Source of the DNA: a virus
DNA: 38,972 nt
Reading direction: 5' to 3' (one strand)
IMG/VR virus record: IMGVR_UViG_3300032083_001335
Coordinates: 1 to 38,972 of that record
Shown: positions 9,591 to 38,972 of the stretch, one piece after another
Position numbering within the stretch: position 1 is the stretch's first letter
How the letters are laid out: each line of letters starts with the position of its first letter
Translations under genes and position numbers: made by a program
Notes under the pieces: generated by a model
What the model saw: only the letters and a program-made list of their open reading frames with translations
Databases searched by the model: none
What the model was told of the DNA's origin: nothing

Positions 9591-9592
9591 TA

Positions 9593-9622: not shown

Positions 9623-9648
9623 CGAAATAACAGGTAAATTTAATTAAC

Positions 9649-10725: not shown

Positions 10726-10742
10726 AAATTAATTATTTATTT

Positions 10743-12164: not shown

Positions 12165-12175
12165 TTATTAATATA

Positions 12176-12193
12176 TAAAAACATAAGAAAATG
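12176..12193 (+). promoter_or_regulatory. A-rich translation leader, copy of capsid leader
   Basis: The 18 bases taaaaacataagaaaatg end in the ATG at 12191-12193 and differ at one position from the leader of the capsid gene at 10743-10760. It probably serves to match expression of the two virion proteins. Confidence 0.55.
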
Positions 12194-12574: not shown

Positions 12575-12598
12575 TAAGGAACTATTAGCTATATTACT

Positions 12599-12622
12599 GG
12601 AGGGGAGAAATCCCCTCCTTTT
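12599..12622 (+). terminator. Strong terminator after the capsid unit
   Basis: A perfect 8-bp stem, GGAGGGGA and TCCCCTCC, with a GAAA (GNRA) tetraloop at 12607-12610, followed by TTTT at 12619-12622. It lies 25 bases past the stop of the small capsid-associated gene, and so ends the unit that starts at the promoter at 9593-9622. Confidence 0.85.
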
Positions 12623-12652
12623 ATAACTTTAATTTAATTTTAGACAATTATT

Positions 12653-21100: not shown

Positions 21101-24100
21101 CTCTTTAAGTGTAAGTATCTCAGATACACATGGAAACCTTTTGGAAATCCTTGATGTTAACGGGTTAGGGTTTAGCACTACAGTTCTTAACATTGAAAGC
21201 GTTGAAGATGATGTTTTCTTTGATTTGTCGTTTTATTTTAATGGGAACCCTGATTTAGACTTTAACTTAGGTGTTGACGACATACAAATACTTAAAATAC
21301 CTGAGCAAGATTACGATCAAGATACTTTAAACGCCCTTATTACTAAGCTAATTATTCAGCAATCTATTATTGATTATGATAACCTTATTGCTACAACGGG
21401 GGAGGAGTACGCTTCAAGTTTAGTTACCACTAATGCTGCTTCTTATGCAGACGGTGCTGCTTCAGTAACGCCAGAAGATGGTGTTAGTCAAGCTGATGTA
21501 GATGCTGCCGTAGACGCTGCAAATCTTGAATTTGCAGCAAGTTTAATATCTAGCCTCCAAAGGATAGCTTTAGGCTTTGAGGATGTTGCTAACGTTAGAA
21601 CTTTGGTCTTAGATGGTTTGGTAGCTACAGATTTAAATAATTGGGGACATATCCAAAGTTTAAACCTTGAGGAGCTTAAAGATTATATCTTCAACAAGAT
21701 AGATGAGAGTGTAGATTTAGGGTCGTATAGTGAAGAACAGCTTCTTGATATGCCTGAAATAGAAAATTTAGTTTTAAACTCCAATACCCTTCTTTCTAGT
21801 CAAATAAGTGAGCTAAAAACTGAGAACGCCCTTATTACTACTAATTTTGAGTCGGACTTTTCAAAGTTTGCTTCTTTGTTCTCACAGGCTTTAACATCTA
21901 TTGAAACTGAAAATAACGACGCTATAACTGAATACGTGGATACCTTAAGCTTTGCTGCTGACTACGCAGGATCTACAGGTGTTTTAACTGACAAATCATT
22001 TTCTAATGTTGCTAGGACAATAAATGGGACAAGGCTATCAGGGTCTAGCTCTATTGTTATAAGTGATTATTTTGCAGGAGAGTGGGTTCCAGGAAATTCT
22101 GTATTTACAGAAAACGGAAGTTTAGTAGGTGTAATAAGTTCAGTAACGGATGCTAGTAGTACGATTAATTTAGTATCTGGTACTACGTTTAATCTTACCA
22201 ATGGATCAGAAGTTTTTAGCTCTAAGCTAAACCAGTTGCTTACAGATGGGGTTGCCATTGACAGTATTGCAGAAAAAGGAGACCTTCTTTTTATTAAGAT
22301 TGGTGGAACAATTACGGAAATAGGAGAAGTTAGTAAAATTGAAAATGGCCCTGACGTAGGTAGTGATGCCGATCAAAGGCTTATAACCTTCAAAGAAAAT
22401 ATTTCAGTTAACATACCTATAAATACTGAGATTTTATTCAACAAACTACTTAACGACCTTAGAGATGAGTTTAATGTAAAGTCTACTTCTATAGAAGAGT
22501 TCTTGTCGGATATTTTAGGTCAAGTGTCTAATCTATCTAACGTAGACGAGGGCATGGGGTCTTTACTTGAAGCTTATAGGTTTACCTTGTTCGGAACTCC
22601 ACTAAAAAATATAGAGTCTTTAAATAACCTTGGGGAGTTAAAGCTTTTAATGAGGAATCCTGACGTTGCAGGCTACGAAGACTGGAATGCTGATAATTAC
22701 GTTGTTAAAATTGTAGACGGAAATAATAACGACTATACTGACACCAATGTGGTTAGTACTATCTTAGGTAACCATGATGAGTTTGCTAACGGAGAAAGCA
22801 CAGCATCAGGTGGAGGGAATTTAACAGAAGAACAGAACATTGCTTCAGGCTCTCATTTTCACTATAAAATTATCCCTTCAGATAGTGACTCTCTTGCTAC
22901 TATATTAAAGTTAAGATTTTCATTTGGTTCTGGAGATATAATATCAATTACTGAAGACGATGAAGGTGATGGTATGTCTATTAGTAACCTAGATATTGTT
23001 GATATAGATGGAGATGATATTACGAATGGATACTCTTTTGTTTTAAGCATCGTTAAAGGAGCTAGTGCTAATAAGTGGGAGTTTACTTTGTCTAACGACG
23101 AAGACAAGTCAAACGTTTTAAACAGCCAAACAGTTCAGTGGGAAATAATAGAAGAAGAGTTTGATCAAACACAGCAAGAAGTTCCAGGAAGCAAATTTGT
23201 AAGTGATGTCAACTCTAACCTATCAACAATAACTAATGTAAACGATTCTGCATGGATTATAAACGAACACACTTCAGGTCAAAGTTGGGCGTGGAATAAT
23301 AACGGTTATTACGAGGGTGTTAACGGTGGTGTTGTTTCTCCAGAAGATGGAGGAGGGTTTAATCAATCAAACTCTTTATCTTTACCTGTCCCAGAACTTA
23401 AGCCTAACACAACTTACGAGATTTCTTTTATCAAAGGGACTGAGTTTGAAGGTATTACTGAAAACGTTATTTTTGACGACTGGGCAGTTCCAAATATAAT
23501 AGACCTCCAAGATATAAATACTTGGGAAGACAACGTTTCTAATTATCCTACAGACTACACTCCTTTAAGTCGAGGTGGAGAAAATGGAACTTACTGGTCT
23601 ACAGAAGAGGCTGACGGATCAGACGCTGCAACTAAAGTTAAGGTAGGAATTTTTAATAGTGACGGTACTATAACAGTTAACACTACAGCTCTTAAGACTG
23701 ATTTTTATAGATTAAGACCTGTAACTATAATACAAAACGCACCAGCATCCGCTACTGTAAGCTCAAGTTACGCAGGGGGTATAGTAATAAAAAGAAGTGG
23801 AAATACCGTTAAGGTTGTCGCTTTAAGTGACGCACAACATAACTTTGCCGATACGGTAATTTTAGACGCGACAGATACATCTATTGTAAATGGCTCTAAC
23901 ACTCCTGTACCTACTACTTTGAGTAGTAGCAGTAATTCAGAAAGTTTTTCTATAAACTCTTATGGCAACACCCTTTACACTGGAGGTCCTACCAACAAGT
24001 TTCAAGTAAAGTTTCATCTTGACCTTGATAGCTCAGGAAAATTAGATATTAATAGTATTCCTTACGAATCCCCATTAGCTTTTAACCCTTCAGCTCAAAC

Positions 24101-27100
24101 TCAAGAGTTAGAGATTAGCTTTAAATTTGCTTACGAGTATACGGAAGGTGGCACAACAAAAAGATATAGCGGACATTTTTACCTTTTAGTAGACGCTACA
24201 GGTATATCATCTATACCAGAGTTAAAAAACCTTATTATAAATAGATGGAATGCTTCATCAAACTTAGACGACATTAATTATGGGGGTCAATCTGACCTTA
24301 TTAAATCAGGATCACAGGTTCGTTATTACTTTGGTGAGGGACCTGATGGAGTAAGTCCTGACAACCAAAACAACCAAGATTATGCAACTTTCTCCACAGA
24401 TAACTTAATTATATCAAGCTCAACGGGTGGGTTGGATTTTGTTTTTGTAGGTAACGAAACTAACAGCTTTCCTCCTGGTAGTCCAACATCCCCTGAAAAA
24501 CTTATTCTTAATAGCTCAAAATGGTTTTCTGGCTCTGTAGGTACTACCTATGGCCTTCCTTCTTATGAAGAAGCGGACAGGTATATTTTAACGTCTCCTG
24601 AAGGGCCAACAAGAGTTCAGTTTGCTCTTTCTGGATGGTATTTTCCTGAATTGACATTCAAAATTACAGACATAGTATATGAAAGAGATCAATTTAAAGG
24701 CGGAGGCTTTTTTTATTCTGAGTTTTCAGCCTTAGAGGATCAAGTATCAAAAGAAAATCTTTTAGACATTCCACAATTTAAAAAACACCCTGCGTTATCT
24801 ATTTGCCAAAGCTACACTTCTACTGTTTCTGTTGGAGTTGATGGGTTTTGTGATTTACAAATAAGTTTAGATAACGGAGCAAAACTTGGAACTGGGATTC
24901 AACCCAACAACAATTTTGTACCAGATGGTTTTAAAAATAATTTTTTTAAAAAATCTTTGCTTTCGACTACTGCTCGCCAACTTTTTTTCAGTTCAGGTAT
25001 ATCGGCTGAACCTATTTATAATTATACGCAGAGTGGGGTTGACTATTTTGTTAAAGACGTTACAACCACTGATGGTGTTTTTTTAAGACTTGTAACTAGT
25101 GCTTTCTACGACCCAGAGGAAGAGGGTGCTGGACACATTGTAGTTAAACCCAAAATGGATGGTTTTAGGGGGAAGTTTTATGGTGTTCAAATTCAAGAGT
25201 TTACAACAAGAGCAGTAAACGTAGAGCCTTCTAGAAGAATATTATCACTTCTTGGGGAAAAAATTCAGGAGGCAGAAACTCACAACGTTATAAACCAGAG
25301 TCCTGTTTACGGAACAGCTTTAATTAACGCTTACAACGGCAACAAGACCCTAATGAAGAATAACACCACAGGTAATGTTGACGTAACTCCTTTAATAGAA
25401 GGTGGGTATGTTTGTGTTGGTACTTATGAAGATAAGCCTAAGAATAGAATATACTACTTCGTCTCTGAGGAAAATAAAGACAAGAAGAGAGATAGTATCC
25501 TAGAGTACGACTTGATGGCAGATAAGATTACTACTGTCTATCAAGATGACGTAGGGTGTAGCTCTGACAACTCTAACGCTATACTTACCTTTAGTGAGAG
25601 TAACCTAATTACTGGGATAAACAAAGTTGATGACATTCTATACTTTACAGATGACCTTAACAGACCTAGAAAGATTAACGTGGAGTTGGCTAAAGCTAAC
25701 GAGGAGAATATATCAAACCCTCCGTACACGTTCCAAGATACTTTCTTTAGAACGTTTAAGAGTACTGTTTTTGTTGGTGGAGATAACGAACACCCTTTTG
25801 TAGCTGGAGACTACATATACACTCAGTATGATTCTACTAGCTACTTGAACAAGTGCTTTAACGGGTACGCTAAGGTGCTAGGTATAGTCCCTAAATTAAA
25901 CGAAGGTGTTACCATCGCTATTAATAAAGGAGAGACTACAGTAACCTTATCTAGTGCTGACCATGGGTTAATAGGAGCTAACAAGGGAGACTTTTTAGCT
26001 ATTACTGACGGAACACTCCCTCACTACTATAAGATAGCTTCTGTTAGCGGTGCTACCGTAACATTAGAGAGTCCTTACAACGAGCCTAGTAAGACTGCTG
26101 CTAAATCACTTAAAGTAGATGGTGTTAGCGTGTCTGGTATTATTACAGATTGTCCTTTTGGAAAGTCTGTAGCTACAGCTCAAGGAAAGATATTTTATGC
26201 TAACCCTAAAGGAGCTTACTCTCCTCTTATTACTTTTGGTAACTACGAGGAAAAGATGAAGTACTTTGATGTTGTAAAACATCAGCCTACTCATAAGCCT
26301 TCTATAGAGATGGTTAAAGAATCTGGTGTTGCTACAAATAACATTATAGATAACGTGTTTCAGTTTAAGTACAGGTACAACCATACTGACGAAGAGAACA
26401 CAACTTACAGCCCTATATCTGACGTAGCTATAGATGGTTCTTATGCTACCAACGCACCTATAAACGCTTTAGACTTTAACCTTGTAAAAAACAGGATAGA
26501 CGTTTCTTATGATAACGCTATTTCTGACGTAGAGTTTATAGAGGTTGTAGGTAGGAAGGGTAACGATGGTAAATTCTTCTTGATAGAATCTATTCCTAAC
26601 AACTTTATAAACTACCTTAAAGAGCTTAAGAATGATCTTATTTTAGATTCTGAAGATGATTACGTCATTGACAGATCTAATATAAAGTTCTATAATAATG
26701 GTGTTTATCCTTTCATTGACGAGTTAGACTCTAACAAGTTGTTTGACGCTGTACCTATTAAGGCTAAAGCTCAGACTATACTATCTAACAACAGGTTAGC
26801 GTATGGTAACATTGTTGAGGGGTATGATAATACAGATCTAGCTGTTAGAACTATCTTTAGCAGTGAAGAAGCTCCTATACTAGAGAGTCAAACCAGTGAC
26901 GTACCTTTTAGCCCTACTATACCTAGTGGGTATAGAGAGAACGCAACTGGGTACGACCACAAAAGTGGTTATGGTAAAGCTACGTTTAATCCTACCATCG
27001 ATCTTAACAACATTGACCTAAGCAGTGATAAATCTCAATTCTTAGAGCTTGACTTTAACTCTAAATTTAAGTTTGAAACTAGTAATGATCTAAGCGGAAT

Positions 27101-30100
27101 ATTTGGAAATCAAAAACACGAACATAGAACCTCTAACTTTTATGGTGCGTGGAGGGTTACAGGTATTAGAACAGCTCAAGAGCTGGCTGACTTTGTTGTT
27201 GGTCAAATAAACATTGGAGATTTTGTTGGAGGTACAGGATCTAAACGATATACGAACAACACTAATAAAGCTACGGTATCTGCTTCTTCAAACTCTAGTG
27301 GTCAAGTAACCATAAGGTTTGCGTGGACTGTACCTAACAGTGCTGGTGGTGGAAATATTAAAGACACAAAACTAGAATTTAAAAGCCAAACTATAGCTGG
27401 TAAGTTTACGTCTGGAGTAGTAGGTGTTGGATCGTTTAAGTCTGGTGCTTTCCATAACTTTGGTATCGCTTATTTTGACGAGACCAATAGGTGTTCTTTT
27501 GTAAATACAGCACCTGTTTATTCTAACGTAAAAATTTCTCAAGAATCTCAGGGTAAAGAAGAAACAACTATTGACCTTAATGGTACTAGAGCCTACAATC
27601 CATTCTATACTGAGCCTGGTGGTCCTGACTTAGGTCAAGGATCTAACGTGTCTATTGAGATATATAACCAGCCTCCAAATTGGGCTAAGTTTTATCAAAT
27701 TTACTACACAGGTAACAACACTGTAGATGAGTTTGTTCAGATGACTGTTACTCGTGCAGAGCATGGTGCTTCTGGCTCTGGAGACGATCAGATGTACCTT
27801 AGTTTAAACTCTTTAAAAGGTCAAAACTATAGTTACAATCAAACAAACAACTCTCAAGTTAAGTACGACTTTGTTCCTGGGGATAGAATTAGATTTATAA
27901 GCTGTTTGAAAAATAGTACTAGACTTAAGTTTAATGAGTATGTAGACTTAGAAATCGCAGGTGAAGACCTTTTCCAGGGTACTGATAACGCTATAGGCGA
28001 TGAGGGTGGTTACTACATTAGAATTAACGATCCTAAAAATGACGCTGTAAAGGTTGTCTCTAATGATGGGGAAACTACGGGTACAGTAGATTTATCTACT
28101 ACAGGTAGTAGAAACTCAGAAGCTGATAGCGGATACAACGGCTTAATTGTAGAGATATACAGGCCTAAGAAGAACTCAGAAGAAGAGTTTATGGTTTACT
28201 ACGAGGTTGGTAAAAAGTACCCTATACGCAACAGAATGCACAATGGAGATTCTTCTCAGGGTGGTTCTTTTTCGATTGACCAAGCTTCAGGTGTATCTGT
28301 ATCTGAAACTCCTGCTATAGTAAGTATAAATACAGGAGACATCTATTTAAAACCTAGGACTATGTTTACTTCTGGCAACGATACTGGTTCTAATGCAGAA
28401 ACATTCTTCCCTGAAGATTATAATCTTAACGATTTCCATAATACTAACCACTACTCTAAAGGTAGAATAAATGTTATTAACACTAACTCTAAAGCTAGAA
28501 GGTTAGAGGCTTCTGTTTATTACTCAGAACCATACTCTAGTACGGGGTCTATTAACGGATTATCCTCATTTAACTTAGCTACGCAGCCTTATTTTGATTA
28601 CAACAAGGCGTTTGGTTCTATTCAGTCTTTGCAGACTAAGGATGACGACTTAATTATATTCCACGAAAACAAGGTTGGTAGAGTACTTGTTGGTAAAGAC
28701 GTTTTAAACACAGCTTCTGGAGACGGATTAGTATCCTTAAGTAGGGATATTATTAAGAATTACGTTACTGTTTATTCTGGAGACTACGGTTGTTGTTTGC
28801 AGCCTGAAAGTATTGTTAAGAATAACGATACGTTCTACTTTATGGATATTAAGAAAGGGGCCGTACTTAGACTGTCTAACGACGGCATCACCCCTATATC
28901 TGACAATGGTATGAAAGATTACTTTAGAGACATTGGTGAGATGTATGTAGAGTATGACCCTGAAACTCAAGATAATCAAGTGTTTAATATAGTTGCTGGA
29001 TTTGATCCTAAGTACAACGAGTACGTGATTACTTTACCTGCGGTCTACGATAAGACTGAAGGTTTGTGGGATTCTGAGGTTAATATCTGGAACGCTAAAT
29101 CAGACCGATACTCTAATGTTAAGCCAGATAAAATATTTTTTGCTAAGACGGTTGCTTTTAATGAGGACATTAATCGTTGGACTTCTTTCTATGGTTTCTA
29201 CCCTGAGTTTTACTCTAGGGTTAACAATCAGTTTGTTGGATTCCAGGCTGGTTACTTATTTAAACACAATATGACTGATAGGTATCACCAAAAGTTGTAC
29301 CTAAACAGCCCTGTTCTGTCTAAGTCAAACCCTAATTATAACGTTTGTTACGATAAGGTTTTAGATTCTAGCTTAGAGTTTCCTTTTAATGCTGAACCTG
29401 ATACTGTCAAAAACTACAACGCAATATCTTTAAATAGTGATACTAAACTCTTTACTGAGATGAAAACTAACATCGGACAAACTGGTGCTGGGGAAGATAA
29501 CTATGGTGGCTATGACAACGTTATATCTTCAGGTATTGGATTTAGAAAGGTAAAGGGTGAGATACAATCTGTTAACGGTAAGTACTTAGTAGGTAACACA
29601 AACTCCTCTATAGGTGAGGTTTGTAAATTCTTTGAAGATTTACACAAGGGAGATGTTATTAGAATTATAGGAAAGAAAAGCTCAGGAGACTTAAGAAGCT
29701 TTCCTAGCTACGCTATTGTAAGGTCAATATCTTCTAATAGCTTGTTAATTTTAAATAAAGAACTTGACTTAGCTGTAGTATCTCACGTAGAGGTTATAGA
29801 CTACAAGACAAAAGAAGGTATACAGTACTCTCAAATTCCTTTCGTGTCTAGTATGGACTTCGAGTCAGAAACTCTAGGCTTTAATGGCGATGGTTCTGAG
29901 TTGAGTCTTGCAGGTTCTGTAAGTGGTTTTGAGTATTCTGACGATCCTGGGGTTTTTGTTTCTATAATTGTTAGTAATAAACTCGTTTACCCTGGGGATG
30001 ATATTCCTGCTAGCAGGATGATAACTGGTGCTAAGTACGCTTTAATTAAAGTTGGAGAAAATGACAAGTTTAATATTAACAACGTATCTATGGGTATTGA

Positions 30101-30521
30101 CGGTGGTTATAAGAACTTAGCAGGAGAAGTCTTTACTTGTTCTTCTCAGTCTTCGTCTACCACTACTAGGGTTAAATCAATAACTGATAGAGCTTTTATT
30201 CAAAACCTAGATAATGGTGAGATTATTTTTGTTGGGCATCCATTTCTTCGTGTTGATTCATCAGAAGCTCAAAATAAGCTTAGAGTATCTTTATCAAAAG
30301 AAGGTAAAGCGTTCGTTTCCTCAAACCCTACTGGTAACTTCGTTTTATTTTTAGCTAAGGATGGTAACATTGAGGGTGAGAGATTAAAGGGTGGATACAT
30401 GATGACAACGTTAACAACGAAGTCACCTAGCTCTACCTCTAAGTCAGACCTACCTAAGTATAAGTTCAACCTCTACTCTGCTAGTGTGGACGTAGATAAG
30501 AGCGAGTTAAGTGGAGAATAA
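15114..30521 (+). CDS. Giant tail/nozzle protein with large fibre-like insertion
   Basis: This is one continuous frame of 5135 residues, about 40% of the window. Residues 1-60 (RVFTGGMDKDSDPRLIKNGDYRHAENIRN...) and about 3356-5135 (including GNKTLMKNNTTGNVDVTP, RIYYFVSEENKDKKRDSILE, VDDILYFTDDLNRPRKINVE, GCCLQPESIVKNNDTFYFMD, LRLSNDGITPISDNGMKDYF) look like the two parts of one Bacteroidetes-phage tail/nozzle (muzzle-like) protein with a beta-propeller. Between them lie about 3300 residues of other material. Residues about 436-556 (GNVTLTESSLANGDSWKFPV...) and 1913-2063 (GNGSFDNGTTAGW...) are jelly-roll, carbohydrate-binding-like. Residues about 623-730 are coiled coil. Residues 756-2140 hold TPEDG repeats. 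Residues about 2696-2830 hold a further jelly roll. I infer that it closes the head and carries receptor-binding fibres. An assembly error (fusion) is unlikely, since the frame stays open and codon use is even. Confidence 0.75.
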   Translation: MAKDKRVFTGGMDKDSDPRLIKNGDYRHAENIRNIASSDGTSGSVENIESTIKVPYSFKGEDVDQIIEIDEGTASVLPQKSVFYSQTITFEFKGREEDWGSKEKNSFSIYSYTPEKELEQIGHQWSSNGRLSWSQNSFKPTPEHLWEMFNEETGKISKNIPILDINTGEWETAHSKVDFLSSSFLRGGNKVTVEIIADKRGVSFLLDFISPGSDRYWSQTIEEFPPYGKMNLKGGPNSVVYETLVLSSQSSFNSEDTNNQTLDEFIDAEGNSFENNTPTPLEGDTITEYTFSFEGQEPTTAQDASEVQIFSYVENALGGFEVTPVLSFGGGLYNSGQTYEFNANQVSLSNSLHDTFEGFYGNVLHQGETAINGALDRSKGQVSLSFLKGEALNGNNFSTIQDSANASVNDFNFLKGFFNLESLEEYSEQANIEISNGNVTLTESSLANGDSWKFPVELKKNQAYLVQADISEFNVASAVLDVTIPSAQGGPDSIAPSSSNSDLSISGVNNTFEWIVPASEVYHDANFIEVKFTSGSIAEDETVVIKNLRVSKLKKSSFKFDISLRSLTDFNLCFGSSQEQVLESLEEGIALSNQQSFVEGFIISKLSLERKQGKDFSYVSDQLIEAQEKIVELNGVISSLNIDLKNLKTSYNDTLKDINGVLPLDGNVAFTLFSELENKSATLASTIIDVNTKVDDLVSKVTAFQTQEEITQIAGLNESIENLEAEIAALEQSSSTAAAQALIDIEAARDAGEASVTPEDGVSQADVDAVQALLDTAKNSLAAALLDVEGYNDGVTQVHVDAVQALLDQAGVDLGILEVKVSTLTTSQSTLTSQLTDEEAEVIRIQALLDAALANQEDGITQTDVNNAVAPIKALLTQAQTEINAVNPNDGLADTVVDSFQDLITTALATLTTKKEELTGVFDSTQTSSDIADINTSIAALQAEIVRLQGVETNQITQGDVDTAVTNLKDILVNASTVTLSESSLTSTDAATQALLDAISKEVTDASTIIADAVTKIDQQKQNAVTAAVSGLYTLTQLNEEYIKAYIKGTTLVVPEGGASQADTDGEIAAAIATAEQLIASGKLTSFTEGVNSVIQEDGINNFHIDNAKTSGYADGAASVDITKDNAAAYADGVDVVKNNPSAYSLYTQAQYEANFTDGVNSVDLTILGNPQIATIAGEKYAAGVTATQELFNNNLSIQLTPEQAENAGLVWAQGIRDGYFGEGVNSVDITSDNTAAYADGEAAGKILGAASVDLTVNNPAIKLISDSAFTAGANSVTPEDGIKQADVDAVQAKLDSLNSLISALPDSYTDSASITNSITAIETSVENVVAVKKSFTDSLLAAFNAGEASVDITTDNQSAIDGAVAKIDTALTNAKTDLKILESDLTVITEGTKNALQSLLDVANQQITNAENATTLVQADLDAIEASLSAANLLLDATVVKTDSETGEIINNTQASLDAVIAELADLKNQLFGFDAEKYANVQAQVDAAVAAATDTMSSAVAAAIAAAVSIQQPSTGITTSNINTAIDAAIATIVPDDGITQAEVDAARAAGAASITPEDGISQTDVDDAVTAAILAFAGPNATFTQANIDDAVRNATILITPEDGVTQDNVDAVQASLETAISTLRAALGLSADAPADTAADISALETKIGQLNAAQSALNALDTSASTTGGETIGDAAALIADYNTLKLSENALQSQIDDITALLASTTGTFAAGEGVSSLVDDTIQETIETLKTANSTLTTLMTTTKSSIETVSGTVTTLYNNAQLVTDAEKYISSLIMSTTLSDTTGIGFDSTTNLYNDPGVDSPSFGLEAGGLIGEIPQGFLDPIDPSTSTDLFYLLKRLTDTYNLLYNNYSTLYTDYTTLSNDPDTQVTQADVDAVQALLDASTDAESLANESLQLLYGNEPENYIGNGSFDNGTTAGWFNLYDEDNANKFWIIEDEKLVRSPHSDSESSGGARYIGSDASKDKRIQPGKYIVSVSLKSLGEGAEHDSDSLSVSISDTHGNLLEILDVNGLGFSTTVLNIESVEDDVFFDLSFYFNGNPDLDFNLGVDDIQILKIPEQDYDQDTLNALITKLIIQQSIIDYDNLIATTGEEYASSLVTTNAASYADGAASVTPEDGVSQADVDAAVDAANLEFAASLISSLQRIALGFEDVANVRTLVLDGLVATDLNNWGHIQSLNLEELKDYIFNKIDESVDLGSYSEEQLLDMPEIENLVLNSNTLLSSQISELKTENALITTNFESDFSKFASLFSQALTSIETENNDAITEYVDTLSFAADYAGSTGVLTDKSFSNVARTINGTRLSGSSSIVISDYFAGEWVPGNSVFTENGSLVGVISSVTDASSTINLVSGTTFNLTNGSEVFSSKLNQLLTDGVAIDSIAEKGDLLFIKIGGTITEIGEVSKIENGPDVGSDADQRLITFKENISVNIPINTEILFNKLLNDLRDEFNVKSTSIEEFLSDILGQVSNLSNVDEGMGSLLEAYRFTLFGTPLKNIESLNNLGELKLLMRNPDVAGYEDWNADNYVVKIVDGNNNDYTDTNVVSTILGNHDEFANGESTASGGGNLTEEQNIASGSHFHYKIIPSDSDSLATILKLRFSFGSGDIISITEDDEGDGMSISNLDIVDIDGDDITNGYSFVLSIVKGASANKWEFTLSNDEDKSNVLNSQTVQWEIIEEEFDQTQQEVPGSKFVSDVNSNLSTITNVNDSAWIINEHTSGQSWAWNNNGYYEGVNGGVVSPEDGGGFNQSNSLSLPVPELKPNTTYEISFIKGTEFEGITENVIFDDWAVPNIIDLQDINTWEDNVSNYPTDYTPLSRGGENGTYWSTEEADGSDAATKVKVGIFNSDGTITVNTTALKTDFYRLRPVTIIQNAPASATVSSSYAGGIVIKRSGNTVKVVALSDAQHNFADTVILDATDTSIVNGSNTPVPTTLSSSSNSESFSINSYGNTLYTGGPTNKFQVKFHLDLDSSGKLDINSIPYESPLAFNPSAQTQELEISFKFAYEYTEGGTTKRYSGHFYLLVDATGISSIPELKNLIINRWNASSNLDDINYGGQSDLIKSGSQVRYYFGEGPDGVSPDNQNNQDYATFSTDNLIISSSTGGLDFVFVGNETNSFPPGSPTSPEKLILNSSKWFSGSVGTTYGLPSYEEADRYILTSPEGPTRVQFALSGWYFPELTFKITDIVYERDQFKGGGFFYSEFSALEDQVSKENLLDIPQFKKHPALSICQSYTSTVSVGVDGFCDLQISLDNGAKLGTGIQPNNNFVPDGFKNNFFKKSLLSTTARQLFFSSGISAEPIYNYTQSGVDYFVKDVTTTDGVFLRLVTSAFYDPEEEGAGHIVVKPKMDGFRGKFYGVQIQEFTTRAVNVEPSRRILSLLGEKIQEAETHNVINQSPVYGTALINAYNGNKTLMKNNTTGNVDVTPLIEGGYVCVGTYEDKPKNRIYYFVSEENKDKKRDSILEYDLMADKITTVYQDDVGCSSDNSNAILTFSESNLITGINKVDDILYFTDDLNRPRKINVELAKANEENISNPPYTFQDTFFRTFKSTVFVGGDNEHPFVAGDYIYTQYDSTSYLNKCFNGYAKVLGIVPKLNEGVTIAINKGETTVTLSSADHGLIGANKGDFLAITDGTLPHYYKIASVSGATVTLESPYNEPSKTAAKSLKVDGVSVSGIITDCPFGKSVATAQGKIFYANPKGAYSPLITFGNYEEKMKYFDVVKHQPTHKPSIEMVKESGVATNNIIDNVFQFKYRYNHTDEENTTYSPISDVAIDGSYATNAPINALDFNLVKNRIDVSYDNAISDVEFIEVVGRKGNDGKFFLIESIPNNFINYLKELKNDLILDSEDDYVIDRSNIKFYNNGVYPFIDELDSNKLFDAVPIKAKAQTILSNNRLAYGNIVEGYDNTDLAVRTIFSSEEAPILESQTSDVPFSPTIPSGYRENATGYDHKSGYGKATFNPTIDLNNIDLSSDKSQFLELDFNSKFKFETSNDLSGIFGNQKHEHRTSNFYGAWRVTGIRTAQELADFVVGQINIGDFVGGTGSKRYTNNTNKATVSASSNSSGQVTIRFAWTVPNSAGGGNIKDTKLEFKSQTIAGKFTSGVVGVGSFKSGAFHNFGIAYFDETNRCSFVNTAPVYSNVKISQESQGKEETTIDLNGTRAYNPFYTEPGGPDLGQGSNVSIEIYNQPPNWAKFYQIYYTGNNTVDEFVQMTVTRAEHGASGSGDDQMYLSLNSLKGQNYSYNQTNNSQVKYDFVPGDRIRFISCLKNSTRLKFNEYVDLEIAGEDLFQGTDNAIGDEGGYYIRINDPKNDAVKVVSNDGETTGTVDLSTTGSRNSEADSGYNGLIVEIYRPKKNSEEEFMVYYEVGKKYPIRNRMHNGDSSQGGSFSIDQASGVSVSETPAIVSINTGDIYLKPRTMFTSGNDTGSNAETFFPEDYNLNDFHNTNHYSKGRINVINTNSKARRLEASVYYSEPYSSTGSINGLSSFNLATQPYFDYNKAFGSIQSLQTKDDDLIIFHENKVGRVLVGKDVLNTASGDGLVSLSRDIIKNYVTVYSGDYGCCLQPESIVKNNDTFYFMDIKKGAVLRLSNDGITPISDNGMKDYFRDIGEMYVEYDPETQDNQVFNIVAGFDPKYNEYVITLPAVYDKTEGLWDSEVNIWNAKSDRYSNVKPDKIFFAKTVAFNEDINRWTSFYGFYPEFYSRVNNQFVGFQAGYLFKHNMTDRYHQKLYLNSPVLSKSNPNYNVCYDKVLDSSLEFPFNAEPDTVKNYNAISLNSDTKLFTEMKTNIGQTGAGEDNYGGYDNVISSGIGFRKVKGEIQSVNGKYLVGNTNSSIGEVCKFFEDLHKGDVIRIIGKKSSGDLRSFPSYAIVRSISSNSLLILNKELDLAVVSHVEVIDYKTKEGIQYSQIPFVSSMDFESETLGFNGDGSELSLAGSVSGFEYSDDPGVFVSIIVSNKLVYPGDDIPASRMITGAKYALIKVGENDKFNINNVSMGIDGGYKNLAGEVFTCSSQSSSTTTRVKSITDRAFIQNLDNGEIIFVGHPFLRVDSSEAQNKLRVSLSKEGKAFVSSNPTGNFVLFLAKDGNIEGERLKGGYMMTTLTTKSPSSTSKSDLPKYKFNLYSASVDVDKSELSGE
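17380..21530 (+). repeat. TPEDG / D-I-T-x-DN coding repeats in the giant tail gene
   Basis: In-frame degenerate repeats. One type reads [V/I]TPEDG[V/I][S/T]QADVDAVQALLD (near nt 17380, 18947, 19780, 19920, 21466, with shorter forms at 17495, 17685, 19720 and 20735). The other reads AYADGxASVDIT.DN (near 18440-18510, 18780-18890, 19150). The best-preserved DNA copies are 17406-17438 and 20745-20777, which are 32/33 identical (gcagaYgtagacgcagtaca then agctttgttagat), with a third close copy at 17508-17537. They probably build a long helical or trimeric fibre shaft. All copies are in the coding strand and frame, so this is a protein repeat, not a CRISPR or IS. Confidence 0.85.
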
Positions 30522-30557: not shown

Positions 30558-31469
30558 ATGAAGATTAAATCATACCCTAAGTATAAAAAGAAGAAAAACA
30601 CCCCTAAAGCTATAATTGGGGCTGCAACTGCAGGTATAGGGCTTGGTAAAGCTATTTACGGTGGCTTCCAAGCCAGAAAGGCTAAGAAGGCTGAGAAGGC
30701 TTTTGATAAGTCTAGGCTACAGAAAACTGTATCTTCTGCTACCCAGCAGATGGCTGACGAACCTATAGATCAGTCTTACGTAGAAAACCTACAACAGCAA
30801 CAGGCTGCAGATAGAGCTTCAGCGATGGGTGCTTTATCTAAAGACCCTAGAAACGTCCTAGCAGGTGTACAAGCACTAGAGGGTCAAGCTTCCAAGCAAA
30901 GGACTGCTTTGTTGGGTATGCAGGATAAGGCTAAGACAGCAGCTATGGGCAACCTAGCTAAGGCTCAGGATCGTGTTCAAGATCAAAATGTTGGTATAGC
31001 TCAACAAGAACTTGCAGGTATAAGGGGTCAGAAGGCTGCTGCAGAGCAAAATATATTTGGCGGTGTTGAAGACATTGCTTCTGGTGTGGGCCAATTGTTT
31101 CCTACTGGAGAGAAAGGTGCTAAGATAGAAGCTGAAGAAGGTGGAGTTACTCCTGATGAGTTTGATCACGACACTAACAAGATTGACTTAGTTCAAGACG
31201 GTGAGAAGATTGGTGAGGCTACAGGTGGAGAACTTATACTACCTCCAGATGACGTAGAGGCTGTAAGGTCTGCTTTGAAAGAAGGAGATAAAGACGCTGC
31301 GTTTAAGCTTATGGAAGACTTAGTTGCTAAGTACGACAAGAATGTTATGGAGTCTGATGATGATAGTGGTGAGGAAGAGGCTGAAGAAGAGATGCCAGTT
31401 ATGAAGCATGGTGGTTACCTTGAAAGAGTTAAGGCTCGCATGGGTGCTTACATGAAACCTAAATACTAA
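30558..31469 (+). CDS. Internal virion / ejection-type protein
   Basis: This 303-residue protein has a basic N-terminus (MKIKSYPKYKKKKN), then a Gly/Ala hydrophobic segment AIIGAATAGIGLGKAIYGGF (18-37). Residues about 40-170 are a Gln/Ala/Lys-rich helix with likely coiled coil. The segment KIGEATGGELILPPDDVEAV, then RSALKEGDKDAAFKLMEDLV (about 217-256), is a pattern I recall from minor virion proteins of Bacteroidetes phages. An acidic stretch (SDDDSGEEEAEEEM, about 266-279) precedes a basic end. The hydrophobic helix and long Ala/Gln-rich helix resemble podovirus ejection proteins (compare T7 gp14 in position and style only). It is first of a tight three-gene group (gaps of 3 and 2 bases) after the tail gene. 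Confidence 0.55.
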   Translation: MKIKSYPKYKKKKNTPKAIIGAATAGIGLGKAIYGGFQARKAKKAEKAFDKSRLQKTVSSATQQMADEPIDQSYVENLQQQQAADRASAMGALSKDPRNVLAGVQALEGQASKQRTALLGMQDKAKTAAMGNLAKAQDRVQDQNVGIAQQELAGIRGQKAAAEQNIFGGVEDIASGVGQLFPTGEKGAKIEAEEGGVTPDEFDHDTNKIDLVQDGEKIGEATGGELILPPDDVEAVRSALKEGDKDAAFKLMEDLVAKYDKNVMESDDDSGEEEAEEEMPVMKHGGYLERVKARMGAYMKPKY

Positions 31470-31472
31470 GAC

Positions 31473-32945
31473 ATGGCAGACGGTTTATTTTTTACGGGTA
31501 CTGTTTTTAAGAACAATAGAAACCTGATACAGGAGGAGAACTCTAGAAAGCAACTTGCCATGCAGGAGGAATCCCTCAACATGAAGAAAGAGGATGCTGC
31601 CGCTAAAAGAAAGAAGGCTAGGCAAGATCAGGCTGAGGCGTATCAAGAGGATGCTGACCTTAGTGGTATTAACGACCCTAGGCTAGCTAAAGCTCTTTCA
31701 AACAAAGCCGAAGAGGTAAACAAGTTTGCTGCTGATAATTATGAGAATCAAGACGACCCTACGTTTAGGTCTGAACTAAAAGCTAAAAGGTCTGAAGTAC
31801 AATTATTTGGAAAGTACCTTACTAAGCTCGACAGTACAATAGCTACATACAATCCTTTAAACGAAAATGCTCAGAATCTAAGATACAAGTCTGATGATGA
31901 TGGTAACAATCTTTTTGAGCTTAACTTAAACAACGAAATTGCATCTTTTGAAGATGGAACTTTTGATCTTAACGCTAACATAGCTTCTTTCAGTGATAGG
32001 TATGACAAGACTATTATTAAGGATATGCCTACTCCTGACTATCAATCATATTTAGATGATATTCAGACTCAGTATACTGATGAAAAAGGAAATGTTTACA
32101 AGGGGTTGGCTGATAAGGATAAGACTCGATTCAAAGAGAACTTTGTCAACAACCACGTGATTAACGCTTCTACTGGTACTTTTAAAACAACTCAAGCAGA
32201 AAACACTTATTCAACAGGTGAGACCTTTATAATCGGTGGAGATAGCTACTCAGGTATAGAAGCCTTCTTTAAAGAGAAAAAGGGAATGCAAAACGTTGAG
32301 CAGATAAAGCCTGAGGAATTAGCAGCACTAGACCCATCTAATAAAGAACTATTCGATAAAGACCTTCACCTAGAGTATGTAGATTACTTAGCTGACATGG
32401 TTTGGAAGAGAGAGAGTAAGGGAAGAAAGCGGATGATAATTAAGGAGCAACAAAATGGTAATAACGAAAAAGGCTTAACTGAAAGTCAACAGGCAATGCT
32501 TAGTGTGGTAAGTAAACCTCACGAAACAGAAGTGTATGGTGACGTTACCCTAAAAGATAAAGTCTTTACTGGTATCAAAGAGGTTAAGGTTAACGTAACT
32601 CCTGACATGATGCTAGAAGGTCAAGGTGATGACGCTAAAGATGAGTTAGTTAAGACACATCAATCAGAAGTTATTTCTGGTGGAGAATACGACCCTAAGA
32701 GACCTATGCCAGGATTGGTTATTGGTGTGGGACAAACTATGGATGGCACTCCAGCAGCAAAGGTAAAAGCATTTAATCAGGTGTTCTTAGTACCACTAGA
32801 GCTTCTATATACAGAGATCAAAGATGCTAACGTAGTTGAGAAGGGCGGCTTAGGACAAGCTATACTAGAGTCAGCTTCAGGGGCAGTTACAGAGACAGAA
32901 ACACCGACACCTACTCAAGGAGTTGGGGCAAAATATAACAAGTAA
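31473..32945 (+). CDS. Internal virion protein, helical, function unknown
   Basis: This 490-residue protein lies 3 bases after the preceding gene. N-terminal MADGLFFTGTVFKNNRNLIQ is followed by a strongly charged helix (about 20-110: RKQLAMQEESLNMKKEDAAA, then KRKKARQDQAEAYQEDADLS) that is a likely coiled coil. The middle (about 110-330) is mixed and the end (about 340-475) is beta-rich, with VNVTPDMMLEGQGDDAKDEL and AKVKAFNQVFLVPLELLYTE, then a Thr/Pro-rich tail (TETETPTPTQG). No enzyme motif is recognised. Its position between two other presumed ejected proteins suggests an internal core or ejection protein (compare T7 gp15 by slot). Gene order and helical content are the only support. Confidence 0.5.
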   Translation: MADGLFFTGTVFKNNRNLIQEENSRKQLAMQEESLNMKKEDAAAKRKKARQDQAEAYQEDADLSGINDPRLAKALSNKAEEVNKFAADNYENQDDPTFRSELKAKRSEVQLFGKYLTKLDSTIATYNPLNENAQNLRYKSDDDGNNLFELNLNNEIASFEDGTFDLNANIASFSDRYDKTIIKDMPTPDYQSYLDDIQTQYTDEKGNVYKGLADKDKTRFKENFVNNHVINASTGTFKTTQAENTYSTGETFIIGGDSYSGIEAFFKEKKGMQNVEQIKPEELAALDPSNKELFDKDLHLEYVDYLADMVWKRESKGRKRMIIKEQQNGNNEKGLTESQQAMLSVVSKPHETEVYGDVTLKDKVFTGIKEVKVNVTPDMMLEGQGDDAKDELVKTHQSEVISGGEYDPKRPMPGLVIGVGQTMDGTPAAKVKAFNQVFLVPLELLYTEIKDANVVEKGGLGQAILESASGAVTETETPTPTQGVGAKYNK

Positions 32946-32947
32946 AC

Positions 32948-35900
32948 ATGAACGAAGAAGCTTTAAAGGACGCACATAGCCTATTTTCAAACTCAGGCTA
33001 TAACGGGGATATAAATGAGTTTCAAACACTACTTTCTGACAACGCTGAGGCGTTTGCAGACTCGTATGGTTTATTTACTAAGTCTGGTTACAGCGGATCT
33101 GAAGACGACTACAAGTTGTTATTAGGATTAAAAAAAAAAGATACTTCAGAGTTGCAAGAAGCAGCAGCTCCAGAGGGTACTCAGGATACTCCATCCACTT
33201 CGGAGACTGGTCAATCTTCATTGGCACAAAAAACTCAAGATAGCTTAAACGAAAGACTTTCTGGATACAAGGACTTATCTGCGGAAGACAAGATTGCCTT
33301 TGACAAAGAAGAGGAGCTTAGACCTTTTTACGAGGCTGAGGGTGTTGACTATGATCAATTCTTATACTCAAGCCAGTTAGAGAAAGAAAGAAAAGAAAAG
33401 AAGTCTAAGACTAGAGTTAAGCAGACACCTGAAGGTATTCAGGCTAAAAGGTATCTAGCATCTGTAGACGAAAACGCATTCCAAGCTAATACTAAGTATC
33501 ACGAATCTAAATATCAAAGCGTTCTTAATAGTAGTACTTCTCAGGAAGACTTTATGTCTAAAATTGAGAGCGAGGGAGTTGACTTAAATTACATTCCCCT
33601 TAACAACTTTTTAATTGACGGAGAGAAGGTTAGCTACAAAGACTTAGAAAGAAAGCTGTACGATAACGACTTTATTGACAAGTTTCAAGCTGGTGATGTT
33701 GATGTAAGCATTGTAAACCCTGAAAATGCAGAGTCTTTAAAATACTTAGAGGACCTAGCTCAAAGACAGATAGAGTCTGGAGGTAGATGGGGAGATATAG
33801 CTGAAAGTACATTAGCAGGAGGTTTAGACCAACTAGTAGCTGGATCTTTAGAACTTATAGAGGGTGCTAACGCTTTAGCCTTAGATGCTTTTGAAGGGGT
33901 TATTGTTAAGCCATTCTCAGAAGCCCTAGGTGGTGAGGAGATTGAGTACGGTAGAAACTTTGAGGAGTACATGAAGTATGGTAGCTACTATGGCAAGAAG
34001 GTAAAAGACTACGCAAAAGAAATTAGAGAAGAGACCAGAGCTTACCAAGAGGGTAGTATAACCAAGTCTATGCTTAAAGGAGATTGGGGTAACGCCTTCT
34101 TTCAGGTAGGTAATGGGGTTGCTGAGTCTGCCCCTTTGATTGCTACCATGTGGCTAGGTACTCCTATGCTCGCTAGAAAGGTTGGGCAAAAGGCTGCTGA
34201 AAGAATAGTTACTAGCTTTGCTGGTGTTGGAGCTGGTGGTGTTAAGTCTTTAGAATTAAAAGAGCAAAGACTAAATGGAGATCTAAACATAAGCGACTTA
34301 CAGCTTTTAGCTAACGCTGCGTTAACAGGATTTGCTGAGGGTTACTTTGAGAAGAACACCCTTAAGATCATAAATGGTATGCGTGATGTAGAAAGGCTGG
34401 GTAAAATATCTCCTGCAGACCTTGCTGACAAATTCGTTAAAGGCTTTGGTAAAAGCTTTGGTCTAGAAGGTTCATCTGAAGCTGCTACTGAGTTATCTAA
34501 CACTTTTACTGACGCTATTACAGGGGCTGGAACGCCAGAAAGCCTTACAGACGTTTTAGTTAGAATGAGTGACGCCTTCATTATTGGTGGTATTATGGGT
34601 GGTGGTATGCATACCATAGCTTATGGTGCTAAAGCTTGGTCTGACTTCACCTCTTTAAACGACGATATTGCAGTAGTGTTTACTATGCAAGATGGTAAAA
34701 AGAAGGAGATGAAGCGTGGAGAAGCTATTAAGTTTATAAAAGACAAAGACGTTTCTCAAGCCATTAGAAATGGTGATATTAAAATGGACGCTTCTATTAC
34801 AGAAAATGGTAGGAGTAAAATAGAAGAAATTATATACGGATACTACGCTCCAGACAACGTACTCTCAAGAGAGGTTATGATGCAGAGAGAGATAGAGGTT
34901 CAGAACTTAGTTAAAAAGGTTGAGAAATCTAAAGACCCTACAGCAGAAGATGTTAATGCTATTGCTGACGCCCTATCTAAAATGGAGGCTGAAGGTAAGA
35001 AAAACAAGTACAACGTAACTAGCAGGACTGAAGCCACAAGAGCTAGGGTAGGTAAGTTCTTTAAAGACAATGGTATCGAGATTGTAGATGCTGTGAACGA
35101 TCAAGACGCTTCTATGTCAACTATTACAGAGACTGTAGAGTCTAACTCTATAGAGACAATAGAGGAGTATAATGCTGTTGAAAAACAACTTGAAGACGGT
35201 AAAAGAAAACCTACCATTGTTAAGTCTCAAGATCAGAACGGTATTAAGATTAAGGGTGAGCAAACTCAAAAGTCTAGCATCACTCAAGGGAAGTTTAAAA
35301 GCGTATCCTCAGCGAGGAATGCTATGAAAGATTTCAAAGCTAAATTAGAGGCTAACAAGAACGTTAAACCTACAACTGAGCAGATAGCCAAGGATAATAA
35401 CAAAGCGTTCTTAAACACGAAGAAAGACGGTTTAGATAAGGTTCCTAAGAAGGTTATAGATAGTGGTAAGTACCACATTATATCTCCTGATCGGTCTGGA
35501 CTTACTAAAGCTGAGTTAGAGTCTAGAATGGAAAACACCAAGGCTGACTTAGAGGCTTCAGGTGCTACCGTATACACCATCACAGAAGTGGTGGACGGTA
35601 AGCCTAGAAAAAGTTTTTTAGTAACAAACACTACAAACGCTGCAGCTTTAGGTACTGCTAGAAACCTTCAGGTACAGTCTGTATTCTCTGGTAAAGATGG
35701 TGTCTTAAATACCGACGGTAGCGTTGTTCCTTTAGATAACTCAAGCCTTAGTGGTCCAGAAGCTAGACAAGCTGGAGACATATCTATTATCAATATAAAC
35801 GGTAGAAAGACTTCTATACACAGAGGGGTAGATAAAAGTAAAACAACATTTGGTAAAAGCTTTGACTCTAACAACGTGCACAAGCTAGACGAAAGCGACC

Positions 35901-38900
35901 CTAACTACGATAAAGATATATTAGATGGAGTGCCTTCAGATAGAAAGCGTGCTCTAGGTTTTGCGTTTAAGTTACTGAGCTCTATTGGTGGGCTTAAAGT
36001 GACAGTGGTCCGCAACTCAGATAATATGTACAAGCAATTAAAAGCTTTGGGTTACTCTAATGAGAAGGCTACAAAAGGTGCAAACTCTAACGCTTTCTTT
36101 AGGGGTCAGGATAAGAGTATATACATAAACCTTGAGAACGTAAAAGGAAACACTTTATTCCACGAGATTGTGCACCCATTGGTGGACTTCATGAAGAAGA
36201 ACTCCCCTGAGACTTACGCTAAAATAGAGAAGGAAGTATCTGAGGGTAAAGTTAAAAGAAGATACATTGAGGGTGGTAGAAGAATGAAGGGGACCTACTT
36301 AGAGTGGGCTCAGAATCATCCCTACTATAGCACGTTATCTAAAGAGGCTCAGATCGAGGAGGCTTTTGCTGAGATGATTGGTGATGCTGCTTATGGACAC
36401 TTCGTAGACAGAAACTCAAGACTAGGTAGACTAAGAGCTTTGATTAGCGAAATACTATCTAAGATTGGTGTTACTGTTACTGATCAACCTGAGAAGGTTA
36501 GTTTAGATGACCTTAACCTAGCAGGAATAACAAAGAACCTAACTGGGGCTTTGGTCAACGGAAGAACCATTACTGTAGGCAAGGTAGAGTTTGAGGTTGG
36601 CGACGTTGAACCTGATGTAGATGATCGCCTTAGCTTAGACGTTGTAGACAGAAGGTCTCAAATACAATATTCCTACGACTTTAATTCTGAAGCTTTTAAG
36701 GAAATGACCGATGATGGTACTATTTCTAATGACAAGTCAATAGAAGACTTTAAAGGAAAAGAGTTTATTATTCACTCTCCTGACGCTATGTTCTCAGGGA
36801 GTATTATAGACAAGGACGGTACTATATTGGTAGAGGGTAAAGGCGGTTTACTTTTTACGTTTAAGTTTAACGAGGAAGGTTACTTCTGGGCTTCTACGGA
36901 TCAAAGAGCACAGGACATGGTTAATCTATTAAATTCTACCATAGAAAAAAATGGTGGAAAAATATACATGGCTCTTGTTACAGCACCAAAAGATAAACTA
37001 CTTTCAAATACTGCTTCATCTAGGGGTATTATCAACTTGTTTACTTCAGACAACTTTATATCTAAAATGGGTATGAGCAAGCCTAATGTTTATAAGGCAC
37101 TTGTTAATGCTGCTAATAAAGTTCAAGGTAAAGGATCCAAAGCAGTTGGTTTGAATTTAAATTTAAAATCGTACAGACCTATAACTGATTTTCATCAAGA
37201 TGCTGTTGAGAAAATATGGAACAAACTTCACTACGATGAATCTAGATTTAAAGACAGAAAGTTGTTTACAAATACCTTTCTTCAAGAGCTTCAAAAAAAT
37301 GCTTTTCAATCTGAAGCTAGTAAAACTAACTTTATAAACTTTATAAAGTCTAGCTTAGGTGACGACAGTAAAGTTAGGTTCAATAAGAAAGGGGAGCCTG
37401 TATTCCAAAGCATGAAGGCTGCTGTTGTTAATGTTCTTACAGAGCCATCACTAAGGGGTGAGGAAAAAACTAATAGGGTGTATGCTGTCTTAGAAATAGA
37501 TGGTCCAGTAAAGGCTGTAAAGACAGATTCTTATGAGAGTTATGGAACCTCTATAGTTTCAGCAGAAGGCAATAGGGCTAAGATCCACAGGCTAGATGAC
37601 AGAAAAGCGTGGTATGATGTTTTTCAAGACCCAAAAACAGGCAAGCCAATAGGTAAAACTGTTATTGGAAAAGGCGACAAAGGAAACATAATTTACAGAA
37701 AAGATCAGATAATGACTACTGTAGCTGGTGTAAGCTCTATGCCTTTAAAGTTCCAAGCACCAAACGTAGAAGAGGTTGTATGGGAAGAGTCTAAGATTGG
37801 TAAAGGTGATAGAGCCATAACCAACAGAAACGACGCTGTACAGAAAGCTGCTAACGATTACTTTGCTAGAGAGATCGAGTATGAAGAGTACTTGAAAATA
37901 GTTAAAGACAACAGCCTGATTAAACCTATAACTAAGTTTATGGACCCTGCGTCTTTAGAGAACGTTGAGTTTGCTATAGGTAAGAAATCCATAAGCAAAA
38001 AGACAGGTGAGAGCATGATAGACGTTCCTATTGAGGAGGGTCGTGAAGTTGGCGTAAGGTTAGACATAAACGCTTACGTTGATAAAAACACTTGGGTTGT
38101 TACTGTCCATGATAGTAAAGTTAAAAGAGATGGTAGTTTAGATGTTGGTGGTTCACCCGTATCTTATACTAACGTAGCTAGAATAAAAAACGTAACCTTT
38201 GCGTCAAATCCTGGTGCTGCTCTAAATATTGCTAGAGGTAAATCTAAAGCTACGATAGCTAGGGTTATGGGTAACTGGAGTCCACTAGAAGGGGACACCC
38301 CAGAAGCTAGAGCAGAGAACGCTAAGAGTATTGTTGTTGAAGTTATGAATGACCCATCTTGGGTACAGGTTGGTATGAATCCATTCAGACACTCTTACTT
38401 CTACGATAGACTAGATGGTATGCCTGTAGTTAAGGCTGATGAAGTTGTTCAGATCGGTGGGTTGGTTTACGCTAAGAATGCTGAGAAGGTTAGCCCACTT
38501 GACGAAAGGTTTAGAGACCCTAAATCTGGACTTAGATTCCAGGCTCCTGCATACGATATGGAGTATACACCTAACGCTTTAATATCTTTATCTGCTAGTA
38601 ATATTGAGGAAGCTTCTGCAGAGGATTGGATGAGGTTATTTATTCCTGGTAAAAAAGGTCCTAAGCCTGGGTACGTAAAGGGTACTTCAACAGATGTTAC
38701 GTCTATGGGTCTAGAGGAAATACTTAAAGCTTACCAAAAGGAAGCTAAGGTTAAGAGTATACCTAAAGAGGTTGTAGAGAGTTTGATAGCTACCAATATG
38801 GCTCCTATTGAAACTACTATTTTGGATGATGTAAGTCAAACTATGTATGGTAATTACACTCTTCCTGGGGGTGACAACTACAGAGAGTTTCTTATTCATG

Positions 38901-38972
38901 ACGTTTCTGGTAATGACTTGTACAAAGCTCCTCACTACAATAAGTTTGGCAGTGAGCTTGGTCAAAACTTAA
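32948..38972 (+). CDS. Giant large-polyvalent-type protein with zincin protease motif (partial)
   Basis: ATG 32948 opens a frame still open at the window end (2008 codons; last full codon 38969-38971). Two 30-residue N-terminal repeats are SLFSNSGYNGDINEFQTLLS (11-30) and GLFTKSGYSGSEDDYKLLLG (41-60). Hydrophobic stretches lie at about 281-315, 384-412, 418-436 and 541-564. Region 841-916 has a 'SFLVTNTTNAAALGTARN' segment. A zinc protease motif, NTLFHEIVHPLVDF, has H1072, E1073 and H1076, with EEAFAEMIGDA (E1142 likely third ligand). Region 1271-1371 has GSIIDKDGTILVEGKGGLLF and YFWASTD. Near 1793-1865 is HSYFYDRLDGMPVVKADEVV-QIGGLVYAKN. Near 1886-1985 is EEASAEDWMRLF and YGNYTLPGGDNYREFLI. 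The last three resemble large polyvalent protein domains of phages and plasmids (Iyer, Aravind and colleagues, 2017). I infer a protein injected with the DNA. Confidence 0.8.
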   Translation, partial: MNEEALKDAHSLFSNSGYNGDINEFQTLLSDNAEAFADSYGLFTKSGYSGSEDDYKLLLGLKKKDTSELQEAAAPEGTQDTPSTSETGQSSLAQKTQDSLNERLSGYKDLSAEDKIAFDKEEELRPFYEAEGVDYDQFLYSSQLEKERKEKKSKTRVKQTPEGIQAKRYLASVDENAFQANTKYHESKYQSVLNSSTSQEDFMSKIESEGVDLNYIPLNNFLIDGEKVSYKDLERKLYDNDFIDKFQAGDVDVSIVNPENAESLKYLEDLAQRQIESGGRWGDIAESTLAGGLDQLVAGSLELIEGANALALDAFEGVIVKPFSEALGGEEIEYGRNFEEYMKYGSYYGKKVKDYAKEIREETRAYQEGSITKSMLKGDWGNAFFQVGNGVAESAPLIATMWLGTPMLARKVGQKAAERIVTSFAGVGAGGVKSLELKEQRLNGDLNISDLQLLANAALTGFAEGYFEKNTLKIINGMRDVERLGKISPADLADKFVKGFGKSFGLEGSSEAATELSNTFTDAITGAGTPESLTDVLVRMSDAFIIGGIMGGGMHTIAYGAKAWSDFTSLNDDIAVVFTMQDGKKKEMKRGEAIKFIKDKDVSQAIRNGDIKMDASITENGRSKIEEIIYGYYAPDNVLSREVMMQREIEVQNLVKKVEKSKDPTAEDVNAIADALSKMEAEGKKNKYNVTSRTEATRARVGKFFKDNGIEIVDAVNDQDASMSTITETVESNSIETIEEYNAVEKQLEDGKRKPTIVKSQDQNGIKIKGEQTQKSSITQGKFKSVSSARNAMKDFKAKLEANKNVKPTTEQIAKDNNKAFLNTKKDGLDKVPKKVIDSGKYHIISPDRSGLTKAELESRMENTKADLEASGATVYTITEVVDGKPRKSFLVTNTTNAAALGTARNLQVQSVFSGKDGVLNTDGSVVPLDNSSLSGPEARQAGDISIININGRKTSIHRGVDKSKTTFGKSFDSNNVHKLDESDPNYDKDILDGVPSDRKRALGFAFKLLSSIGGLKVTVVRNSDNMYKQLKALGYSNEKATKGANSNAFFRGQDKSIYINLENVKGNTLFHEIVHPLVDFMKKNSPETYAKIEKEVSEGKVKRRYIEGGRRMKGTYLEWAQNHPYYSTLSKEAQIEEAFAEMIGDAAYGHFVDRNSRLGRLRALISEILSKIGVTVTDQPEKVSLDDLNLAGITKNLTGALVNGRTITVGKVEFEVGDVEPDVDDRLSLDVVDRRSQIQYSYDFNSEAFKEMTDDGTISNDKSIEDFKGKEFIIHSPDAMFSGSIIDKDGTILVEGKGGLLFTFKFNEEGYFWASTDQRAQDMVNLLNSTIEKNGGKIYMALVTAPKDKLLSNTASSRGIINLFTSDNFISKMGMSKPNVYKALVNAANKVQGKGSKAVGLNLNLKSYRPITDFHQDAVEKIWNKLHYDESRFKDRKLFTNTFLQELQKNAFQSEASKTNFINFIKSSLGDDSKVRFNKKGEPVFQSMKAAVVNVLTEPSLRGEEKTNRVYAVLEIDGPVKAVKTDSYESYGTSIVSAEGNRAKIHRLDDRKAWYDVFQDPKTGKPIGKTVIGKGDKGNIIYRKDQIMTTVAGVSSMPLKFQAPNVEEVVWEESKIGKGDRAITNRNDAVQKAANDYFAREIEYEEYLKIVKDNSLIKPITKFMDPASLENVEFAIGKKSISKKTGESMIDVPIEEGREVGVRLDINAYVDKNTWVVTVHDSKVKRDGSLDVGGSPVSYTNVARIKNVTFASNPGAALNIARGKSKATIARVMGNWSPLEGDTPEARAENAKSIVVEVMNDPSWVQVGMNPFRHSYFYDRLDGMPVVKADEVVQIGGLVYAKNAEKVSPLDERFRDPKSGLRFQAPAYDMEYTPNALISLSASNIEEASAEDWMRLFIPGKKGPKPGYVKGTSTDVTSMGLEEILKAYQKEAKVKSIPKEVVESLIATNMAPIETTILDDVSQTMYGNYTLPGGDNYREFLIHDVSGNDLYKAPHYNKFGSELGQNL

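Follow-up and report, generated by a model that had tools for sequence, protein, structure and literature searches.

A predicted zincin metallopeptidase domain in the giant ejection-type protein of a tailed phage with relatives among the viruses of marine Flavobacteria

Why would a tailed phage place a metallopeptidase motif in the middle of a giant protein encoded beside its ejection-type genes, and does the motif belong to a working protease? The question is raised by a 38,972-nucleotide stretch of viral DNA (IMG/VR record IMGVR_UViG_3300032083_001335), here called the window, whose last gene encodes a giant polyvalent protein that is probably ejected (32948..38971; plus strand, as for all features described below unless stated otherwise). 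The visible 2008 amino acids contain no internal stop and the frame is still open at the contig end; since one relative, locus L008, is complete at 3492 amino acids, the full product is expected to reach about 3,500 amino acids, with its 3' end lying past the contig.

Active site and predicted fold

A preliminary description of this DNA had pointed to HEIVH and a downstream EEAFAEMIGDA in this frame as a complete zincin arrangement, and both lie exactly where it put them: HEIVH at residues 1072-1076 (36161..36175), supplying the presumed zinc ligands H1072 and H1076 and the general base E1073, and EEAFAEMIGDA at 1137-1147 (36356..36388), with E1138 as the likely third ligand. The arrangement is also borne out among homologues, since HExxH is kept in 55 of 56 distinct homologous domains and the remaining one starts at a contig edge, downstream of the motif. 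A chance origin was rejected on this conservation and on shuffling of the giant protein, in which 1.5% of 5000 shuffled versions had an HExxH anywhere and not one had HExxH with E[EQ]xxA further on. Near 32345 the minus strand also encodes HEQKH, which was put down to chance.

In a 38-sequence alignment with identities down to about 22%, H1072, E1073, H1076, Y1127, E1138 and G1205 are invariant, and E1138 is so in a 41-sequence alignment as well. The third zinc ligand is therefore most likely E1138 rather than E1137 (98%) or E1142 (93%), and it sits in a second predicted helix (1132-1148), downstream of HExxH. Just upstream of this second active-site helix lies Y1127 (36326..36328), a candidate transition-state tyrosine by analogy with anthrax lethal factor and PPEP. 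Because the general base is conserved along with the metal ligands, the domain is apparently catalytically competent, as far as sequence can predict it. Taking the alignments (A3, A5 and A7), the structural model and the profile comparison together, we have very little doubt that residues ~995-1210 (35930..36577) form a zincin domain whose active site is intact.

The support from profiles is uneven. The preliminary description had staked its zincin on a match to zincin profiles and on the retention of H1072, E1073 and H1076; no homologue has lost any of these three residues, but whole-protein scans with Pfam, NCBIfam and PHROGs returned no zincin model above cut-off, so that the identification stands on conserved residues, fold and a match to the N4 virion RNA polymerase (vRNAP), and went unsupported by any curated profile. 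Below that level, DUF5700, a "putative zinc dependent peptidase" family, matches 7 of 12 members weakly (best E 2.8e-4). Some homologues match a PHROG metallo-protease family (1.1e-5) or a PHROG virion RNA polymerase family (4.7e-5), IrrE/ImmA-type peptidases show a weak, motif-level resemblance, and an hmmsearch of PDB sequences gave no significant match to the M34 (lethal factor) family. With hhalign, the zincin profile matched a profile built from ten N4-like vRNAP C1 domains, which carry HExxH, at 95.2% (E 2.7e-8, with the register at the second Glu off by 4 residues), against 0.7% for an unrelated control profile, and it matched gp74 of Tenacibaculum phage Gundel_1 at E 1.3e-9. This is a family poorly covered by public models.

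A model from 12 sequences reached a pLDDT of 59 and an AlphaFold model from 38 sequences, covering residues 975-1615, a pLDDT of 77, with the zincin core mostly at 70-89. Its elements run from an N-terminal helix through strands, the HExxH helix and an insert to the Glu helix, which is the order given for polyvalent metallopeptidases (MPTases) in PMC5512222. For the zincin part, VIA-align is topped by lethal factor and PPEP entries at Z 6.5-7.7, moderate scores that all stay below 8: the lethal factor catalytic domain 560-776 gave Z 7.7 (rmsd 4.9, 165 aligned) and PPEP-1/Zmp1 Z 6.8 (rmsd 3.9, 149 aligned), lethal factor being counted only at 560-776 and not where its non-catalytic N-terminal domain (~50-260) was aligned. 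The modelled fold is thus a moderate match to the lethal factor/PPEP type. Foldseek against the PDB gave no match to the zincin model with E <0.01, and a search of predicted viral structures recovered the structural proteins of elemo (9e-36) and Gundel (1e-4). The N4 vRNAP, the best VIA-align entry for the first model (Z 5.7, rmsd 9.6), was discarded because the aligned residues 2373-2639 belong to domain C2 and not to the HExxH domain C1 (2124-2375); the link to N4 therefore rests on the profile comparison and not on structure.

Relatives, late genes and the modular giant

The source is a tailed phage whose relatives are viruses of marine Flavobacteria. Against phage records, tblastn found 68 Flavobacterium elemo phages (E 1e-57), the gene product being a 3694-amino-acid "structural protein" that is 29% identical to the window giant over 765 residues, spanning HEIFH and the EE motif; L008 is 44-59% identical to the window giant. 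A scan of viral contigs with a single sequence found nothing whereas a two-sequence alignment as query succeeded, and profile-driven scans then gave 11, 65 and 19 loci; a scan of genome contigs returned no relative. The zincin subgroups are only ~14-25% identical to one another, and at one locus, L009, the frame 6767-13500 has a second HExxH (HEVQH, residue ~1741) alongside the conserved zincin. The terminase and portal of the window (5098-9590) match the elemo phages as well as marine Flavobacteriia phages of the Pachyviridae/Pervagoviridae, and the terminase also weakly matches crAss-like phages.

The late genes of the window run from terminase, portal, capsid and tail genes to a protein of ~200-300 amino acids, one of ~490 and the giant, an order that recurs in elemo, Panino and ctfjg026, and the operon ends alike in Cellulophaga phages phi38:1 and phi18:3. 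Upstream of the giant, a 303-amino-acid ejection-type protein (30558..31469) is T7 gp14-like by a sub-threshold Pfam T7_gp14 match (E 0.029) and weakly homologous to Panino CDS0072, itself homologous to phi18:3 gp120. It is followed by a 490-amino-acid protein (31473..32945) that gave no sequence match and whose likeness to phi18:3 gp121 is one of position only. For the three phi18:3 counterparts (gp120, the small one; gp121, the middle one; gp123, the giant) the annotation as virion proteins comes from experimental MS/MS, and the C-terminus of L008 is homologous to gp123 (E 5e-36). The earlier placement of the giant gene next to two ejection-type genes is thus upheld, in that their positional equivalents are virion proteins, and by the same analogy the window giant is probably itself packaged; the elemo and Gundel giants are labelled structural without a stated basis. 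Furthermore, HExxH is absent from the giants of phi18:3, phi38:1 and Panino, so the zincin is a module that such a virion protein can have or lack. Elsewhere in the window, the 5135-amino-acid tail protein (15114-30521) resembles its relatives of 946-1613 amino acids over its first ~55 residues and again only from ~3408, and carries an insertion of ~3,350 residues with SVTPEDGVSQADVDA-like repeats.

The giant itself is made up of several segments. Its N-terminus has two ~40-residue repeats (SLF..SGY.G...; 32948..33145), and residues 1-100 are 35% identical to the N-terminus of the Podoviridae sp. ctfjg026 giant (E 7e-11). A Gly/Ala-rich, weakly hydrophobic segment (residues ~349-563; 33992..34636), traced by blastp, recurs in the elemo and Panino giants and, by way of L008 and elemo, in that of Gundel; elemo and Gundel connect it to phi18:3. 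A DUF3293-like domain follows (residues ~852-912; 35501..35683), assigned because PF11697 scores above its cut-off at the aligned place in relatives (25.5 bits in L008 against a cut-off of 25, and 48.9 in elemo gp18); the window giant gives no significant match of its own. Behind the zincin lies a module (residues ~1246-1605; 36683..37762) that is better conserved than the zincin, with the A4 profile finding it at 65 viral loci, and whose model, which has a helical insert, aligns with YTHDF3 in VIA-align at Z 7.0 (rmsd 3.8, 147 aligned); Foldseek weakly lists the EVE endonuclease VcaM4I. The resemblance of the modelled module to the YTH/EVE (PUA-like) fold is only suggestive.

The loci L088, L091 and L093 share window residues 1 (or 61) to ~1221-1365 at 41-52% identity and then diverge, L088 and L093 having a different module behind the zincin and L091 (4998-12332), in place of the YTH-like module, a segment resembling part of the methyltransferase-annotated Panino giant. 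This swapping of the domains right behind the zincin places it at the border between a delivery half and the cargo, and, together with the DUF3293-like domain, zincin and YTH-like module in one chain, it agrees with the original view of the giant as a polyvalent protein.

What the zincin might cut

Our proposal is that the giant (~3,500 amino acids) would be packaged and would then leave the virion along with the DNA, by way of a channel that the two upstream proteins help to form, much like the N4 gp50-51-52 and T7 gp14-15-16 sets; that the zincin, with zinc held by H1072, H1076 and E1138, E1073 as general base and Y1127 probably steadying the transition state, would refold in the host and cut its own polypeptide or the two partner proteins; and that this cleavage after delivery would free the exchangeable cargo domains. 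This is the reading we favour, although we judge the mechanism as a whole evenly poised between right and wrong. One point against it is that delivery does not require the zincin, since the MS/MS-proven gp123 of phi18:3 has none. The giants without a zincin are here 1691-1935 amino acids long and the complete zincin-bearing ones at least 2482, which is a weak hint at a processing role, drawn from few proteins and confounded with domain number. Also counting against self-processing, we saw no cleavage site, product or activity in this analysis, and the N4 vRNAP has an HExxH domain yet is reportedly packaged unprocessed (PMC5512222). Iyer et al. weigh these possibilities too, their examples being P1 DdrB, which is cut before packaging, and the N4 vRNAP, which is not (PMC5512222).

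The main rival, of modest likelihood, is that the zincin is instead an effector that cuts a specific host protein after ejection, for example a defence or regulatory factor. This is a possible use listed for polyvalent MPTases by Iyer 2017 (PMC5512222), the fold class is that of secreted effector proteases, the IrrE/ImmA-type peptidases with their weak motif-level likeness cut regulators, and the zincin can persist while all other cargo changes. However, no host target is known, the domain is conserved over phages of presumably different hosts where such effectors usually vary, and its fixed position at the border of delivery half and cargo fits processing better. Cutting of virion proteins, either the giant or its two partners, during assembly (as a step of head maturation) or passage and before the host cytoplasm is reached has a precedent in the prepackaging autoprocessing of P1 DdrB inferred by Iyer 2017 (PMC5512222); we consider it improbable, given that the N4 vRNAP with its homologous domain is packaged uncleaved (PMC5512222) and that the related Cellulophaga phages assemble though their giant protein has no zincin. 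A structural zinc site devoid of peptidase activity might be read from PMC12633501, which notes only the motif for the N4 domain and no activity, but such a site needs its ligands alone, and the invariance of E1073 and Y1127 in every complete homologue makes this very improbable.

Returning to self-processing after delivery, the YTH/EVE-like neighbour is the concrete cargo candidate, and the pair of zincin and YTH/EVE-like module recurs in dozens of phage contigs. The injected chain might couple a protease to a reader of modified bases, with the protease freeing a module that binds modified nucleic acid, an idea that we put forward as doubtful; if true, the reader could shield phage DNA from modification-dependent restriction or bind host RNA. 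The module is the less expected part of the protein, and finding the fold of a modified-base reader in a protein that a phage ejects would be a surprise.

Comparison with known systems

A literature search joining internal virion proteins, ejection and metalloproteases found no paper, and the sources found hold no description of the elemo and Gundel zincins. These two proteins, elemo gp18 (3694 aa) and Gundel_1 gp74 (2482 aa), have the same mid-protein HExxH zincin at the same site beside ejection-type genes, and elemo gp18 also shares the DUF3293 domain and the downstream module with the window giant, while both differ from it in their remaining cargo domains. The preliminary description had likened the giant to T7 gp16, and this comparison holds for the gene order, T7 gp14-gp15-gp16 being likewise three consecutive late genes with the giant last and the 303-amino-acid protein matching T7_gp14 below threshold; however, gp16 has a transglycosylase where the window giant has a zincin, and matches to gp15 and gp16 were looked for in the window and none found. 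The N4 trio of gp52, gp51 and the 3,500-amino-acid gp50, whose C1 domain (2124-2375) has HExxH (PMC12633501), is closer and is the closest arrangement described, differing in that no RNA polymerase is recognised in the visible 2008 amino acids of the window giant. The M34-like enzymes (lethal factor, PPEP-1/Zmp1) resemble the predicted fold at the moderate VIA-align scores given above and differ in their biological setting and in the stretch from HExxH to Glu, which is longer in the window zincin.

The phage polyvalent MPTases, typified by N4 vRNAP C1 and published as 12 clades by Iyer 2017 (PMC5512222), likewise pair HExxH with a Glu much farther along, on another helix, and have the same N-terminal helix, three-stranded sheet and two helices, and the same embedding in a giant ejected protein among unrelated domains. 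The window giant is thus a fresh, divergent case of this known type of phage protein and not a new system. Since MPTase domains are the commonest component of polyvalent phage proteins and their substrates are largely unproven, a family that has cultured members (Flavobacterium elemo and Tenacibaculum Gundel phages) as well as zincin-free relatives with MS/MS data makes the choice between self-processing and host targeting directly testable.
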